This document shows positions 12,302 through 62,518 of a stretch of 64,000 nucleotides of DNA, in pieces. A program made the position numbers and the translations under genes. Within the stretch, counting starts at the first letter, position 1. The number at the start of each line of letters is the position of its first letter. Source of the DNA: Phocoena phocoena (taxonomy: Eukaryota > Chordata > Mammalia > Artiodactyla > Phocoenidae); contig NC_089239.1 in the NCBI RefSeq assembly GCF_963924675.1, positions 30,403,818 to 30,467,817 on the forward strand. The letters are read 5' to 3'. The notes beneath the pieces are model-generated. The model ran no database searches. It was given only the letters and a program-made list of their open reading frames with translations, and was not told where the DNA came from.

Positions 12302-12454
12302 TTATGTGTATGCGTTGAGCCGCTCTTTGGAGCGAGTAGAGTGGATATCATGAAGTTCCTGTTCCTCCTTCGACTTGATGTCCTCATACTTCTGCATCCG
12401 GCAGGCATCTTTCACATAAGCCCAGTTGGCAGACAGAACCATAAGGTAGTGGAC
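12302..12454 (-). CDS. GPM6A: GPM6A coding exon 7 with stop codon (residues 229-278, cytoplasmic tail)
   Basis: Last coding exon of M6-a, 153 bp with the TAA at 12302-12304. Seen: acceptor TTTGATTAG, then VHYLMVLSANWAYVKDACRM (end of transmembrane segment 4 and start of the tail), QKYEDIKSKEEQELHDIHST and RSKERLNAYT. The tail faces the cytosol. By counting, Lys250, Lys255 and Glu258, residues reported as important for filopodium formation, and Tyr251 are all present. The acidic and basic C-terminal stretch with DIHSTRSKERLNAYT is characteristic of GPM6A and separates it from GPM6B and PLP1. With exons 2-6 it gives 800 coding bases. Adding the 37 bases expected from the missing exon 1 makes 837, exactly 278 residues plus stop. 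Confidence 0.98.
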   Translation of the reverse strand, partial: VHYLMVLSANWAYVKDACRMQKYEDIKSKEEQELHDIHSTRSKERLNAYT

Positions 12455-13268
12455 CTAATCAAAGACAAAGATAATTTATACTGGAAGTCTGTTCTGTGTC
12501 TTCATTACACCTTGCTATCAGGAAAGAAATATTCTAATTATATACTTATATAGAATATGTTCATTAACAAAATGGAATGAAGATTTCTGTTGTAACACAA
12601 AGAATATAAATACAATATATTCCTTCCTCAATTCTCCAACTATGACACTGTCTTCTCAGCTCCCTTTTTTCAGTATCTTTCTTCTCTTTCAACTCCGAAG
12701 TACCCAAGGGTCTTAATTCAATATTTTTAATCTTTATGTGATGTTTCCTGTCCTTTTGTCCTCATTTACTCAAACCCAGACTATACATTTCATGTTTATG
12801 TATTTATGTTTTCTAATCCACTGTGGGAAACAGTCTCACATACAGTGGAGTCCAGTGAACTTGAATTAATGAGATGATATGTTGCCCACAGTGCAACGGA
12901 AAGAGGGCTCATGGAAACCCCAAAATAAACCTGTAGATTTAATTAACAAGTTAATTTTCCATACAGTGAATTCTGCACAATGAATTTTATGTTGCCAACT
13001 ACAAGAAAGCAAGCACTGTGTCATATGAATCATGAATATTTATATACGCTCATAATAGCTAGAATAGTGCCCTGTTCAAAAAGGAAGCTCCTGATTTTTC
13101 CTGAATAGACTGACCAATGAGATCACTTATTTGTTTTTCTTTCTTTCCCTCCCTCGTAGTCTATGAGAGAGAAAAAGTAGTTTTCGAAATGGTGAATTTT
13201 GATGGACGAATAGGTAAAAGACACTAAGTTGTCAGATATATACTTTCTCTGAATTTTAAAGGGTACGC

Positions 13269-13487
13269 GTTTTTGTTTGTTTTTTTTTTTTTTTGCGGTA
13301 CACAGGCCTCTCACTGTTGTGGCCTCTCCCATTGCGGAGCACAGGCTCCGGACGCGCAGGCTCAGTGGCCATGGCTCACGGGCCCAGCCACTCCGCGGCA
13401 TGTGGGATCTTCCCGGACCGGGGCATGAACCCGTGTCCCCTGCATCGGCAGGCGGACTCTCAACCACTGCACCACCAGGGAAACCCC
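13269..13487 (-). repeat. CHR-type cetacean SINE (deleted form)
   Basis: Full tRNA-like head to tail on the minus strand, with the A-box word tggtgcagtggttgagag and the tail as a T run on the plus strand. Target duplication taaagggta(c/g)gc at 13257-13268 and 13488-13499. Confidence 0.93.
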
Positions 13488-13537
13488 TAAAGGGTAGGCA
13501 TTATTTTTATCCATAATTTAGTAAAATAGAACACTAA

Positions 13538-14400
13538 AATTTTTTATGGAAGTATAGTTGATATTCTATATTATGTACAGTATAGTGATCCACAATTGTT
13601 AAAGGTTTTATTCCATTTATAGTTATTATAAATTTGGCTATATTCCCTGTGTTATACAATATATCCTTGTAGCTTATTTTATACATAATAGTTTGTACCT
13701 CTATTTTTTTTTTTTTTTTTTTTTTTGTGGTATGCGGGCCTCTCACTGTTGTGGCCTCTCCCATTGCAGAGCACAGGCTCCGGATTCGCAGGCTCTGCGG
13801 CCATGGCTCACGGGCCCAGCCACTCCGCGGCATGTGGGATCTTCCTGGACCGGGGCACGAACGGGTGTCCCCTGCACCGGCAGGCGGACTCTCAACCACT
13901 GTGCCACCAGGGAAGCCCAGTTTGTACCTCTTAATCTCCTACCCCTATGTTTCCCCTCCTCCCTTCCCTCTCCCCACTGGTAACTGCTGGTTTGTTTTCT
14001 ATATCTGTGAGTCTGTTTCTTTTTTGCTATATTCACTAGTTTGTTGTACTTTTTAGATTCCACATATAAGTGATATCATTCAATGGTTGTCCTTCTCTGA
14101 CTGACTTATTTCACTTAGCATAATGCCCTTCAGGTCCATCCATGTTGCTGCAAATGGCAAGATTTCCTTCTTTTTCATGGCTGAGTAATATTCCATCGTA
14201 TATATATATGTATCACATCTTTTTTAACCACTTGTCTGTTGATGGACCCTTAGGTTTCTTCCATGTCTTGGCAATTGTAAATAATTCTTCTATGAACACT
14301 GGGGTATGTATCTTTTTGAACTAGTGTTGTTTTTTTTTCTGGATATATACCCAGGAGTAGAGTTGCGGGGTCATATGGTAGTTCTATTTTTGAAGAACGT
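13538..14400 (-). repeat. L1 3' end (end of ORF2 and 3' UTR), interrupted by a SINE
   Basis: Plus strand shows reversed L1 phrases: ggctatattccctgtgttat, ttcacttagcataatgccct, catggctgagtaatattcca, tatacccaggagtagag. Same direction as GPM6A. Diverged from the young L1 copies at 32-35 kb, so older. Confidence 0.8.
13702..13918 (-). repeat. CHR-type cetacean SINE nested in L1
   Basis: Complete short-form SINE. Perfect 12-bp target duplication agtttgtacctc at 13690-13701 and 13919-13930, which is L1 sequence. The SINE is therefore younger than that L1. Confidence 0.95.
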
Positions 14401-15382: not shown

Positions 15383-15448
15383 CATAGCGATGACTGCAGC
15401 CCCAGCTCCGGCAAGGGCCACGATGAACAAGTGGAAGGTCATGTTCAG
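15383..15448 (-). CDS. GPM6A: GPM6A coding exon 6 (residues 207-228, fourth transmembrane segment)
   Basis: Sixth coding exon of M6-a, 66 bp, the same length as the matching exon of PLP1. Seen: acceptor TTCCTTTGCAG, then LNMTFHLFIVALAGAGAAVI and AM, ending on ATG before a good donor GTAAGA (phase 0). NMT is the second N-glycosylation sequon of the outer loop (Asn208 by counting). The remainder is transmembrane segment 4, rich in Ala and Gly as in the rest of the family. It joins exon 7 as M|VHY. Confidence 0.96.
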
Positions 15449-15982
15449 CTGCAAAGGAAACCACAGAGAAACAGAATGAACATCAGGGTTACAACAGAAG
15501 AGAGATAAGGATGCCTGCTGCCTTACGAATAAGAACTCTGTTCACCTTTAACAGAAGTGCACCCGTGACAAATCACTTCATCAAAAACATTATTACAGTA
15601 TCTTTTCTCCTGCAAGTTATTTAAATCTTTGCAACTGTACCATTTTAATATAATTTCATTTTAAAGATGAACTCATGATTAATAATGATGGCTTCCAGTA
15701 ACAGTATAACCACAGAAGGCTATGTTATATCCTTTAAAATATAACTTTATGAGTTTTCAACTTTCATTAAGATGACAGTTTCTAGAAAAAAAATTATAAT
15801 TTTTATCGAAATATGCAGAGTATCTCATATTTATTTTCTAGTCCCCCTGCACAACATCACTGGATGTGACCTTGCCTCTGAAAGAAAGAGGGGGAAACCC
15901 AATGTCGATTTAATTATATGTTCCTCAAATAACGAAATGAAACTCAAATTCTGACAAAATTAAAGGCTGTAAAAACAGTCAC
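15449..15982 (-). other. GPM6A: GPM6A intron 5
   Basis: 534 bp, phase 0, the shortest intron. No repeats recognised. Donor GTGACT is weak by consensus. Confidence 0.9.
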
Positions 15983-19560: not shown

Positions 19561-20064
19561 TTAGCCCTAAATAAAAATAACCAAAGAGGACTACTGATTT
19601 ATTTAACATTTTTTGATTTTGTTATTATGAAATGCTAAGGTGTTTTGTTTTGTTTTTTGCCCTATTTCAGAAGACGATGAAGTACATATTTCTTAATGAC
19701 CTTCATAGCAGACTTCACAGATTGTATAGTTTATCATGAGAGAATGAAAATACTATGCAAACATCACACTGAGTAGGAAAAGTTCACAGGAATCACGACA
19801 GGAAAATCAAAATGATAACTTGCCAACACCAGGAAACACAACCTGACAGCCTGTTCACATACACATGTTTGCGGGTTCATGTGAAATCAACTTCCAATCA
19901 CTCTGAAATTCCTACTTGTTTCCGTTTTAAAAGAATGACTTAAACGTGAAGACTCTGATACATCTATCTCTTTGGTAGAAGAGGCAATGATGGTTCCACA
20001 GTGATTTACACTATTTTAGAGGCAGTTATTTGGGAGAAACCATACGAGCCAGAGATTCACCTAC

Positions 20065-20218
20065 CGAACTGACGAAGGTCCAGGCAGAGATTCGCTCCCT
20101 CCACCAAGGTGGTGTTTCGGCAGATGGTCCACAGGTTGAAGTACATGTAAACTGGCAGCGAGGTGAACGCCGTGACTCCCAGCCAGGCCAGCATGAAAAG
20201 GTATGTCAGCATAATAAA
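20065..20218 (-). CDS. GPM6A: GPM6A coding exon 4 (residues 130-181, third transmembrane segment and start of big extracellular loop)
   Basis: Fourth coding exon of M6-a. Seen: acceptor CTCTGTTGTAG, then FIMLTYLFMLAWLGVTAFTS and LPVYMYFNLW (transmembrane segment 3 and its outer edge), then TICRNTTLVEGANLCLDLRQF. It ends with a single G before donor GTAGGT (phase 1). The length is 154 bp. By counting from the full protein, the two cysteines are Cys162 and Cys174 of the second extracellular loop. In the family they pair with Cys202 and Cys192 and are needed for loop folding. NTT at residue 164 is an N-glycosylation sequon. The reading frame is open across the exon and joins exons 3 and 5 without adjustment. 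A plus-strand open frame over the same place is a shadow. Confidence 0.97.
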
Positions 20219-35300: not shown

Positions 35301-36929
35301 TGTAACTATTATAGAAAAAAATGTGGCTCATTTTTGCTTTAAAAATTCTTATTTGAGATGGCTTTGAAGTGTCAATGGCAAGCGGATAATTAGTAACGGC
35401 ACATAACTAGGTGTTTTCTTCCACGGCTTTTTGCTTCTGCATACAATCTTATGCAGAAATTTCACAATCTCAATGAAACGACCTAATCTACTGCACTCTT
35501 CCTGGCGAAAGGTCACTCCCCAATGGTAAAAGAGACCCCTTTCCTCTATGATTTCACTCGTGTTTTAGAATTATGGACTCTTGGAGCTAGAATGAGCTTT
35601 AGAGATGATCTAATGTCTTTGTGATGTAAGAGAGTAAACTGGGATCCGGAGAAGTTAAGTGACTTGCTAAGACATACAAATGGTGTTATAATGATACTGT
35701 CCTAATTATAAGAAAAAGCCCATCATTAACTGAATTCACCATAGTCTACTGGCAGAGTATGAGCGAATCTAAAATCAAACGTGCCTTCTTAATAGAGAAA
35801 TCCCTTAGGTGTCACTGAAAATTAGCCCACTGAATATTCATATTTTACTTATTAAATTAATTCAAGATCTTTAACTAAACTTCCTTTGGGTCTGTAATTT
35901 GATATTACTGATCCTAAACAATTAGATAATACAACAAACATTGTTCCCCAAAAGAGTCTTACAAGAAATGATTGCAGCAACAACTACAAATACCCACAAC
36001 ACAGGCTAACTATTTTATAAGATTATTATCATTATTGACACTGAGAGAATATCAGAACTTGTTACAAGCTGGTGGAAAAAATGGTTGGTGGTTAACAGGT
36101 ATTTTTGAACTTTTCTGTAAGACTGAAACAAATTGCACCATTCCTTATTAGAGACATCTTACTTAATAGGAAGTATATGCGCTAATTAAGTAGATATTCT
36201 CATATAACATTGGGAAATAATAAAAACACATTGGTCAAGGATGGAAGCTCCAAAGTTCATTTTATGCAAATTATTCTGCATAAAAACGTGAATGTATTTT
36301 TAACATATTACTCTTAATTTTCATCAGTCTTGTGCTTTAATAGATATACATGCATTTTCTGCATTGCATTAGCTCTAGACCATAAGTTTGAGTTACCGTT
36401 AAATAACATATCAATAACGATTTAAAATCTAAATTAGTATAATAGAGTAATTCTTACCTTATGTCAATATTAAACAGTAACTGCCTAATATAGTTCCCAC
36501 CCAAGTTTACAGTAAAATACATGTAACGTGTATATAACATGTATATAAATACATGTATATAACATGTATTTAAGGAAGAGAGACCTGCACCGTTATAAGT
36601 TGCAGATGGATTTTTCTGTTATCTTAAATATTGTATGGGAAGCCCAGAGCCATTTGGGAAACATAGATCATAAATCAATCAACAGTTTGCTGCCTCTAGA
36701 AGCAAGATGAGTTGCGTTGCACATGATTTGAGAATCTGAACCTGAATTTTCACATGGAATCGTTATTTTGAAAATACCATTAAGATTTAAAATAGCCACC
36801 AGAGCAGGGGATGTTACTGTGTTAAAAAAAAACAAACAAAACCCTCCAGTTCTTGGCAGATGAACAGAAACACCTGTGTGCTCCTGAAATAAACCCACAT
36901 TAACTCCCGAGGAAAGACAGGTAACGTAC

Positions 36930-37086
36930 CCAGGCACTCACGCATCTGCCACACGTGGTGATTTTGAAATCCCCGTAGAGATCCTTGATGGCCCCAGTCG
37001 TGAAGAAACCTTCCACCATCAGCAGAATGCCGTACACAAAGAATGCAGCAGCAATGCCATAGATCACATACTTGAAGATGTCAATC
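36930..37086 (-). CDS. GPM6A: GPM6A coding exon 3 (residues 77-129, second transmembrane segment)
   Basis: Third coding exon of M6-a. Seen: acceptor CTTCCCAG, then G completing Met77, then IDIFKYVIYGIAAAFFVYG and LLMVEGFF, which form transmembrane segment 2. The intracellular loop TTGAIKDLYGDFKITTCGRCVSAW follows in pieces and ends on TGG before the donor GTACGT (phase 0). The length is 157 bp. In PLP1 the matching exon carries an extra 35-residue PLP-specific loop. That insert is absent here, as expected for the M6 and DM20 forms. The loop motif GAIKDLYGDFKITTCG is very strongly conserved between M6-a and M6-b, but the residues of the neighbouring exons (C-terminal DIHSTRSKERLNAYT, exon 4 NTTLVEGANL) identify GPM6A. 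Intron 3 after it is 16.7 kb, intron 2 before it 9.45 kb. Confidence 0.97.
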
Positions 37087-46536: not shown

Positions 46537-46729
46537 ATGGTAAAGACATCCAGCGTATCTCCCGCAGTTCTGGCCATCTCAAAGTAGGTTTGCAGGATGT
46601 TAACAGTTCCAGAAAGAGCTTCATGACCACAGCCGCAGAATAGGGCAACTCCAGCGTACAGCAGGATGGTGGCAATCAGAGAGGCATAAGGAATGCCTCC
46701 CAGGCATTTAATACAGCACTCAAAACACC
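46537..46729 (-). CDS. GPM6A: GPM6A coding exon 2 (residues 13-77, first transmembrane segment)
   Basis: Second coding exon of neuronal membrane glycoprotein M6-a, a four-pass plasma-membrane protein of the PLP/DM20/M6 family that promotes filopodium and neurite outgrowth. Seen: on the minus strand a TTTTGCAG acceptor precedes GG (the last two bases of the Gly13 codon). It is followed by the Cys-rich start [11 protein letters not shown], whose Cys17, Cys18 and Cys21 are known palmitoylation sites, then the first membrane segment [19 protein letters not shown] and the CGCGHEAL motif conserved through the family. The exon ends in ACC AT before the donor GTAGGT (phase 2) and joins G-ATT-GAC of exon 3. 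Its 193 bp match the residue count of the mammalian protein. The start codon lies in an exon upstream of this window. The acceptor lies inside a 139-bp tandem duplication, so a second copy of it sits just upstream (see findings). Confidence 0.97.
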
Positions 46730-46998
46730 CTGCAAAAGTCCAACAGGAAAAAAGTTAGAAATTCATATTTTTATTAATCTTATTGAACTTTTTTCCAAAC
46801 TTAAGCATTATGGAAAACATATTTGCATTTATAGATGACATCAGGTCAACCATGTAAATCAAAACACCCTGCAAAAGTCCAACAGAAAAAAAGTTAGAAA
46901 TTCATATTTTTATTAATCTAATTGAACTTTTTTCCAAACTTAAGCATTATGGAAAACATATTTGCATTTATAGATGACATCAGGTCAACCATGTAAAT
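46721..46998. repeat. 139-bp tandem duplication across the GPM6A exon 2 acceptor
   Basis: Unit 1 is 46721-46859 and unit 2 is 46860-46998. By eye they differ at two positions (cagga versus cagaa; atcttat versus atctaat). Each carries the minus-strand branch-point word TTCTAAC, a pyrimidine tract, TTTTGCAG and the first 9 exon bases GGTGTTTTG. A 3-bp microhomology (caa) at the junction points to a replication-slippage or end-joining origin. Only unit 1 is continuous with the rest of exon 2. Confidence 0.97.
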
Positions 46999-47164
46999 CA
47001 AGTCCTAGAGTGTCCTGGAAGGTATAAAAATCAAGTTTCTTAATGATAATCCCATGCTCCACAGACAGGAGGATGATTACTTCTGCTGAGGGTTTCCTCT
47101 TCTACCCCCAAGCCAGAGAAGTCCTTCCTTCCCAACTCAGTAAGATACTGTCAGAGTAGAAAAG

Positions 47165-47320
47165 AGAGACCTGGAAAGGGTTGGAATCTTGACTCCACCA
47201 CTGTGTGTTTTGGGGCAAGTTTATTCTTTTGAATTCATCATTTGTAAGAAGGTGACAGTAAAGCTTTCCCTCAAATGTTCTTGTGAGCATTAAATGAGCT
47301 AATACAGAAAACAGTGCATG
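47165..47320 (+). repeat. MIR-like SINE
   Basis: Contains ggaatcttgactccaccact, tttggggcaagtttattc, catttgtaagaaggtgacag and gagcattaaatgagctaata. Diverged MIR order; it is cut at its 3' end by the following L1. Confidence 0.6.
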
Positions 47321-47321
47321 A

Positions 47322-47820
47322 CTGGATAAAGAAGATGTGGTACATATATACAATGGAATATTACTCAGCCATAAAAAATAATGTCATTTGCAGTGACATG
47401 GATGGCCCTAGACATCGTCATACTGAGCGAAGGAAGTCAGACAGAGAGAGACAAATATCATATGATATTGCTTATTTGTGGAATCTGAAAAAAATGGTAC
47501 AAATGAACCTATTTACAAAGAAATAGAGTCACAGATGTGGAAAACAAACTTATGGTTACCAAGGGGAAAAGGGTGGTGGGAGGGATAAATTGGGAGATTG
47601 GGATTGACATATACACTTTACTATACATAAACTAGATAACTAATAAGAACCTGCTGTAGAGCACAGGGAACTCTATTCAATACTCTGTAGTGACCTATAT
47701 GGGAATAGAATCTAAAAAAGACTGGATATATGTATATGTATAACCGACTCACTTTGTTGTACACCCAAAACACAACATTGTAAATCAACTATACTCCAAT
47801 AAAAATTAATAAAAAAAATA
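47322..47820 (+). mobile_element. L1 3' end, 5'-truncated
   Basis: Begins at ggataaagaagatgtggtac and continues through gaatattactcagccataaa to aaatcaactatactccaata and an A-rich tail. Imperfect target duplication (c/t)agtgcatgac around 47310 and 47825. Opposite direction to GPM6A. Confidence 0.88.
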
Positions 47821-51459: not shown

Positions 51460-52370
51460 TACCATATCACCTTTGTCATTATCAAGTATGCAGAGGTCTG
51501 AGTCTGTTTGTGGGCTCTCTATTCTGTTCCATTGGTCTATTGTCCATTGGTCTACCCCCAGGCCTTGGAATCTGTCTTGGTTTGTGGTGGAGAAAATTCC
51601 CCAAACTTGCTCATCTTCTTATGTGTATCATGCTACTCATGGATGGCTCTATTGCATTAACATATACATTTTAGAAACAGTTGGCCTGATTCCACAATTT
51701 ATTGGGGTTCTGATTGGTTTGGTTTTTGTTTTTTTTTTTGCGGTACGCGGGCCTCTCACTGTTGTGGCCTCTCCCGTTGCGGAGCACAGGCTCCGGACGC
51801 GCAGGCTCAGCGGCCATGGCTCACGGGCCCAGCCGCTCCACGGCACATGGGATCTTCCCGGACCGGGGCACGAACCCGTGTTCCCTGCACCTGCAGGCGG
51901 ACTCTCAACCGCTGCGCCACCAGGGAAGCCCCTGATTGGTATTTTTATACTGATTTTGCATCTAGAAATTTTGCAAAATTCTTTTTTTGATCCTCTGAAT
52001 TATTTTGATTCTGGGAATTAGTTTAAGTTTGTGTTGATAATCATCCCATCTGTGAAAATTTTGAGCTTTGTCTCTTGCTGTTCATTATCTATACCTTCTT
52101 ACTGACCTTTCTCTTCACTTCACTCTGTTCCTTTACCATTATGTGTGATGCTCGCTATTGGTTTCTTGGTTATAGAAGGTCTCTTCAGTTTTGAACTCCA
52201 TAACAGGCTTTTCCCCATCTGTTGAAATAATTTTGTTTTTTCTTTTTACCTGCCATTTCAGTGTTTTTTTTCAATTTTCAACTAAATGCATTCCTGAGAA
52301 AACTCCGACTGAGTCATACTGTATTTTTTAATACATTGCTGAATTTGTCACGCTAACATTTTGCTCCATG
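51460..52370 (-). repeat. L1 ORF2 fragment (antisense), split by a SINE
   Basis: Plus strand ctattctgttccattggtct, ttattggggttctgattggt, then after the SINE tgattttgcatctagaaatt, atcatcccatctgtgaaaat, ggtctcttcagttttgaac. Reversed L1 ORF2. Degraded. Confidence 0.75.
51719..51931 (-). repeat. CHR-type cetacean SINE nested in L1
   Basis: Complete short form. Target duplication ctgattggt at 51710-51718 and 51932-51940, which is L1 sequence. Confidence 0.95.
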
Positions 52371-52622
52371 CTTTTGTATGTATCGATTCATCCCACAAAT
52401 AGTTAGCAGGGCCTCACCAGGTGCCAGGAACTTCACTAATTGCTGGAACTGTGGAATTAATAAAAAAACAACTGCTGCTCTCCTTCTAGAGGTGGGAAAC
52501 AGACAATAAACAAGATGCAGAAGTAATATATGTGAGACTGTGAAAAGTGCAAAGAAAAGCCAAAACATGAAAGAGGGGTAAGGAATATCGGAATAATTCA
52601 GGGAAGGAATAACTGAGATGAC

Positions 52623-52833
52623 ATTTTTTTTTTTTTTTTTTTTCGGTACGGGGGCCTTTCACTGTTGTGTCCCCTCCCGTTGCGGAGCACAGGCTCCGGA
52701 CGCGCAGGCTCAGCGGCCGTGGCTCACGGGCCCAGCCGCTCTGGGGCATGTGGGATCTTCCCGGACCGGGGTACGAATCCGCATCCCCTGCATCGGCAGG
52801 CAGGCTCTCAGCCACTGCGCCACCAGGGAAGCC
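52623..52833 (-). repeat. CHR-type cetacean SINE
   Basis: Complete short form. Perfect 10-bp target duplication ctgagatgac at 52613-52622 and 52834-52843. More diverged than most copies here (cggtacgggggcctttcact). Confidence 0.95.

Positions 52834-62456: not shown

Positions 62457-62460
<4 letters not shown>

Positions 62461-62514
<54 letters not shown>
62461..62514. repeat. (AT)n microsatellite
   Basis: About 27 uninterrupted AT units, a cruciform-prone sequence. The preceding cttgttcaagggtcaac looks like the end of a small transposon. Confidence 0.97.

Positions 62515-62518
<4 letters not shown>

Follow-up and report, generated by a model that had tools for sequence, protein, structure and literature searches.

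A 139-bp tandem duplication that appears to double the exon 2 splice acceptor of GPM6A in Phocoena phocoena

The window analysed here is a stretch of 64,000 nucleotides from the Phocoena phocoena assembly, in which the end of an intron of GPM6A and the start of the following exon stand twice in tandem. This raises the questions of whether the repeat belongs to the animal or to its assembly, which of the two acceptors would be used, and when the second one might have arisen.

The GPM6A locus and the duplicated unit

The gene was identified as GPM6A from a 64-residue reading of exon 2 on the minus strand. Eight GPM6A peptide words were also sought on the minus strand of the window; four matched in full, and three of the eight in part, as at exon ends. 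The exon 2 translation and these matches agree with the initial annotation, which had named exon 2 of GPM6A as the host. The exon 2 donor, placed by the reading frame and consensus score, scores 6.54 (97th percentile). Exon 3 lies at about 37.0 kb, and intron 2 is about 9.4 kb long. The first-exon word MEENMEEGQTQK had no match in the window (best score 28 of 62); for that known first coding exon, intron 1 is therefore at least 17 kb long. The features are listed in Table 1.

Table 1. Features of GPM6A and of the duplicated unit (positions are those of the window)
Feature	Position	Strand	Basis
GPM6A exon 2, 193 nt; acceptor 46730/46729, donor CAT/GTAGGT after 46537	46537..46729	-	frame and consensus score
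Further GPM6A coding stretches	36909-37085; 20063-20218; 15395-15451; 12344-12466	-	peptide-word matches
Proximal copy of the 139-bp unit, adjoining the remainder of exon 2	46720..46858	-	offset comparison, TRF
Distal copy of the 139-bp unit (transcript-upstream), 2 differences from proximal	46859..46997	-	offset comparison, TRF
TCAA, 4-base breakpoint microhomology	46998..47001; also 46720-46723, 46859-46862	.	sequence
TTCTAAC branch-point-like word, true acceptor (A at 46755)	46754..46760	-	sequence
TTCTAAC branch-point-like word, decoy acceptor (A at 46894)	46893..46899	-	sequence
Pyrimidine tract and TTTTGCAG, true acceptor	46730..46753	-	sequence, acceptor score
Pyrimidine tract and TTTTGCAG, decoy acceptor	46869..46892	-	sequence, acceptor score
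Copied first 10 exon 2 bases (GGTGTTTTGA) after the decoy acceptor	46859..46868	-	sequence
TGA ending the frame if the decoy is used	46846..46848	-	frame reading

Comparison of each base with the base 139 positions on revealed a head-to-tail tandem duplication of 139 bp that spans 46720-46997. The matched tract (46720-46862 against 46859-47001) is alike in 141 of 143 columns; on the minus strand, the two mismatches pair C at 46747 with T at 46886, and A at 46781 with T at 46920. The TRF score of this repeat is 550, whereas the other 20 rows of the window reach at most 112, so chance is not an issue. On the minus strand, the unit takes in 129 bases from the end of the intron and 10 from the start of exon 2. 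The two near-identical 139-bp units with two differences that were described initially are confirmed, and each copy carries 10 rather than nine bases of exon 2 (GGTGTTTTGA). The exact phase of the units is ambiguous by four bases, because the matched tract is longer than the unit by the four bases TCAA.

A scan of offsets from 30 to 1000 with at least 92% identity matched four offsets, which were the 139-bp repeat, a TA microsatellite and two SINE pairs. A perfect (TA)28 microsatellite stands at 62460-62515. The SINE copies, which presumably belong to the cetacean CHR family and so agree with a whale as the source, form two pairs of similar copies within 13297-13919 and 51722-52782, where they are 432 and 903 bases apart and alike in 174 of 191 and 142 of 158 bases. 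The sequence about 300 bases transcript-upstream of the duplicated unit (47300-47520) is what we take to be the 3' end of an L1 element.

The TCAA word is present at all three joints of the duplication (outer left, middle and outer right). Joint homology of at least four bases at the 139-bp spacing was found at 2.2% of local positions (44.0-49.5 kb) and at 2.3% of positions at 2-62 kb; this rarity speaks modestly for a mutational origin rather than a random mis-join. It also bears on the chief alternative, which we regard as unlikely: an assembly artefact in which contig ends that overlap, or two haplotypes, were set one after the other although the animal has one unit. Such a join gives no reason for a breakpoint homology that occurs at about 2% by chance, the window is without any N, and two differences in 139 bases are above the usual heterozygosity of whales; on the other hand, 139 bp is about one short-read length, and one difference borders a run of A (G-A7 in one copy, GG-A6 in the other), a typical place for errors. 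The preferred explanation is a single small tandem duplication, which would have copied the 129-base end of intron 1 together with the 10-base start of exon 2, with four bases of end homology as in replication slippage, template switching or end joining. In the assembly, both acceptors are intact and nearly alike.

The two acceptors and their expected use

Both copies contain TTCTAAC, a pyrimidine tract, TTTTGCAG and 10 exon bases (TTTTGCAG/GGTG at the junction). The A of TTCTAAC lies 26 nt before the exon in both, and no AG occurs between this A and the acceptor AG. The locus holds two complete acceptors, each with a separate branch point, tract and AG, and they differ by one tract base; the initial annotation was right in placing these elements in each copy. 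Words and spacing are the same in both. An acceptor score was calculated over the final 14 bases of the intron plus the first of the exon, using an approximate consensus table. The score is 8.02 for each acceptor, at the 97.6th percentile of minus-strand AGs, and their last 14 intron bases are identical. The tract difference is one T in the distal (decoy) copy for one C in the proximal copy, 18 bases before the exon; since it lies outside the 14 scored bases, the equal scores say nothing on this difference. U-rich tracts bind U2AF somewhat better, and the decoy tract may have a slight edge at most. The suggestion that the upstream tract is slightly better is thus correct as to one extra T; any advantage in strength would be slight.

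Use of the decoy would give the frame (G)GG-TGT-TTT-GAT-TTA-CAT-GGT-TGA (GCFDLHG, then a stop at 46846-46848), and frame reading bears out the same frame and stop proposed before. The stop was numbered by adding the decoy frame to the 12 codons that precede exon 2 in the Bos taurus N-terminus (P0043); with these standing in for exon 1, it would be codon 20. The decay rule concerns stops that precede an exon junction by more than about 50 nt, and the stop at 46846-46848 lies farther than that from the junction at 46537; it is also close to the start codon, at codon 20. According to an excerpt of PMC4141738, beta-globin messages whose stops lie near the start codon resist decay. The term 'decay-prone' used for this isoform was therefore too strong, because a start-proximal stop can escape decay. 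If made, the decoy message would probably be unproductive. The segment retained on decoy use is intron-like by its GC content (28%, against 49% in exon 2).

Two other outcomes were considered and rejected. Re-initiation at the in-frame ATG of EMARTAG (46577), which would give M6a without its first membrane span, is unlikely because eight further ATGs come between the stop and 46577. As for a pseudo-exon or a new intron inside the copy, the sole positive-scoring donor-like word between the acceptors is weak (3.13, 84th percentile).

Exon 2 is flanked by long introns and would probably be recognised by exon definition, so the exon-proximal site 46729, nearest to the exon body and the donor, is expected to win mostly. 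Between sites so nearly equal, the choice should be settled by the exon body, its enhancers and the donor next to 46729. The decoy 46868 would then yield no more than a minor isoform, longer by 139 bases and ending at codon 20. According to excerpts of PMC9225289, the upstream preference among 3' sites of comparable strength is strong where the flanking introns are short and drops significantly where both are long; long introns favour the sites closest across the exon, and competing acceptors more than 12-20 nt apart are typically chosen at first recognition. However, the same excerpts report an overall upstream preference for 3' sites at least 20 nt apart and cite Reed and Maniatis for choice of the upstream 3' site; both points would favour the decoy and speak against dominance of 46729. 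No order preference was described in an excerpt of PMC6783452 for two consensus tandem acceptors (2-59 nt apart).

On balance, it seems rather likely that one microhomology-flanked tandem duplication occurred in this lineage and that 46729 dominates, with the decoy 46868 minor at most. The effect of the duplication on the gene would probably be small, unless it is an assembly error. Frequent use of the decoy (tens of per cent or more), which would lower M6a or make a regulated poison isoform, is improbable: the decoy is followed by just 10 exon bases before AT-rich intron sequence begins, and both flanking introns are long, a setting in which the upstream preference drops significantly. Selection would also tend to act against strong loss of a conserved brain protein. 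In favour of frequent use, the decoy is complete as an acceptor, shares its last 14 intron bases with the true one, has one more tract T and would gain from the upstream preference given for intron definition and overall in the excerpts of PMC9225289. That a lineage-fixed natural cis-competition between the two near-equal acceptors has provided some group of toothed whales with a second, unproductive GPM6A isoform, the share of which tunes the brain dose of M6a, is highly improbable.

A relative with one unit and the age of the duplication

The exon 2 protein search returned 43 matches, of which 14 were inspected; the comparison with the window intron took in two of these, P0001 and P0002. Both are identical across the whole exon 2 query and have extra sequence in front, which may be read as translated intron. 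P0002 contains VDLMSSMNANV...KKF once, matching VDLMSSINANM...KKF of the unit, and this motif lies 32 codons before the exon-junction codon, compared with 40 codons in the window. For the intron part of P0002, the score is 61 against the window reduced to one unit and 54 against the duplicated state in the exon frame. When it was compared with 2130 window chunks, the distal copy with its outer flank scored 61 and the proximal copy 54, and the best score elsewhere was 39. The 12 codons before the P0002 unit differ from the outer flank of the distal copy by 11 base changes in 36, a match equalled by 1 in 20,000 random 36-mers; against the inner junction there are 19 changes in 36, and 24% of random 36-mers do equally well.

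P0002 thus matches the outer flank and not the inner junction, which indicates that this relative has one unit. It is one protein from one relative, on a 1462-base contig, and a short-read assembly that collapsed two copies would look alike. Because the single unit directly follows the flank of the distal copy, the duplicated state of the window is probably derived relative to at least one other lineage. In P0001, whose intron stretch is shorter, the codon for F before H-W fits the distal TTC rather than the proximal TCC (score 35 against 27); the score of 35 is not above chance, as an unrelated chunk at 62.2-62.4 kb reaches 40. The fit draws on the place of this stretch next to the exon and is only suggestive of the proximal tract base being the derived one.

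Searches with two window frames (across the unit junction, and antisense to the exon) gave no candidates and are uninformative on the duplication in other genomes. In viral contigs, 10 stretches fit a peptide pattern and none was a relative; there were also no exact matches to a 26-base exon-intron word. In prokaryote contigs, 146 stretches fit a pattern, and again none was a relative. Such absence is expected, since GPM6A is a mammal gene. The PDB sequences gave no matches at E 0.001.

Two changes in 139 sites correspond to an age of 7.2 My (0.9-26) at an assumed rate of 1e-9 per site per year, 14.4 My (1.7-52) at half this rate (0.5e-9), and 3.3 My (0.4-11.8) at 2.2e-9, figures that would be wrong given sequence errors or gene conversion. 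The duplication looks fairly young relative to mammals, and with a range of about 1-26 My it could be family-wide in whales, private or polymorphic. The initial annotation had called it recent, perhaps lineage-specific or polymorphic; its derived state against P0002 supports this in part, whereas 'recent' is weakened by the range of about 1-26 My at the assumed rate. An old duplication common to many artiodactyls, its copies held similar by gene conversion or constraint, is most improbable. Two differences alone would allow up to 26 My (1e-9) or 52 My (0.5e-9), but one relative, P0002, has a single unit, and copies so nearly identical suggest a younger age if there was no conversion.

Comparison with known systems

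Among the matches listed in searches of the open-licence literature (titles and abstract starts, on duplicated acceptors, GPM6A splicing and cetacean splice-site duplications), nothing on this locus was found. The kind of event is known and ordinary; the GPM6A instance appears to be unreported among these matches. If the duplication is real, it would offer a ready-made test of competition between duplicated acceptors at an endogenous long-intron exon, where the predictions of exon definition could be read directly from brain junction counts. For GPM6A, it would also show how a near-perfect decoy is tolerated in a strongly conserved gene.

Like other small tandem duplications with breakpoint microhomology, the GPM6A repeat is head-to-tail and has short shared end bases; in this instance the copy happens to span an intron-exon boundary, and its mechanism is a matter of inference. 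An excerpt of PMC2891723 describes intron gain in Drosophila by tandem duplication of an AG/GY proto-splice site. There too, splice signals are duplicated, and the copy can then be removed as an intron; whereas in GPM6A an existing acceptor was copied and no new intron is needed. Moreover, the donor-like word after the GPM6A decoy is weak (3.13), and its use would add one base and shift the frame. A further parallel is offered by competing tandem 3' splice sites (cis-competition of duplicated sites by Reed and Maniatis, as recounted in the excerpts of PMC9225289; ALTssDB, PMC9225289; designed tandem-acceptor libraries, PMC6783452, in excerpt), in which two complete and near-identical acceptors compete for a single donor ahead of a single exon, as the GPM6A pair would. 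Compared with these, the GPM6A pair is natural, with acceptors 139 nt apart that have separate branch points in a long-intron gene.
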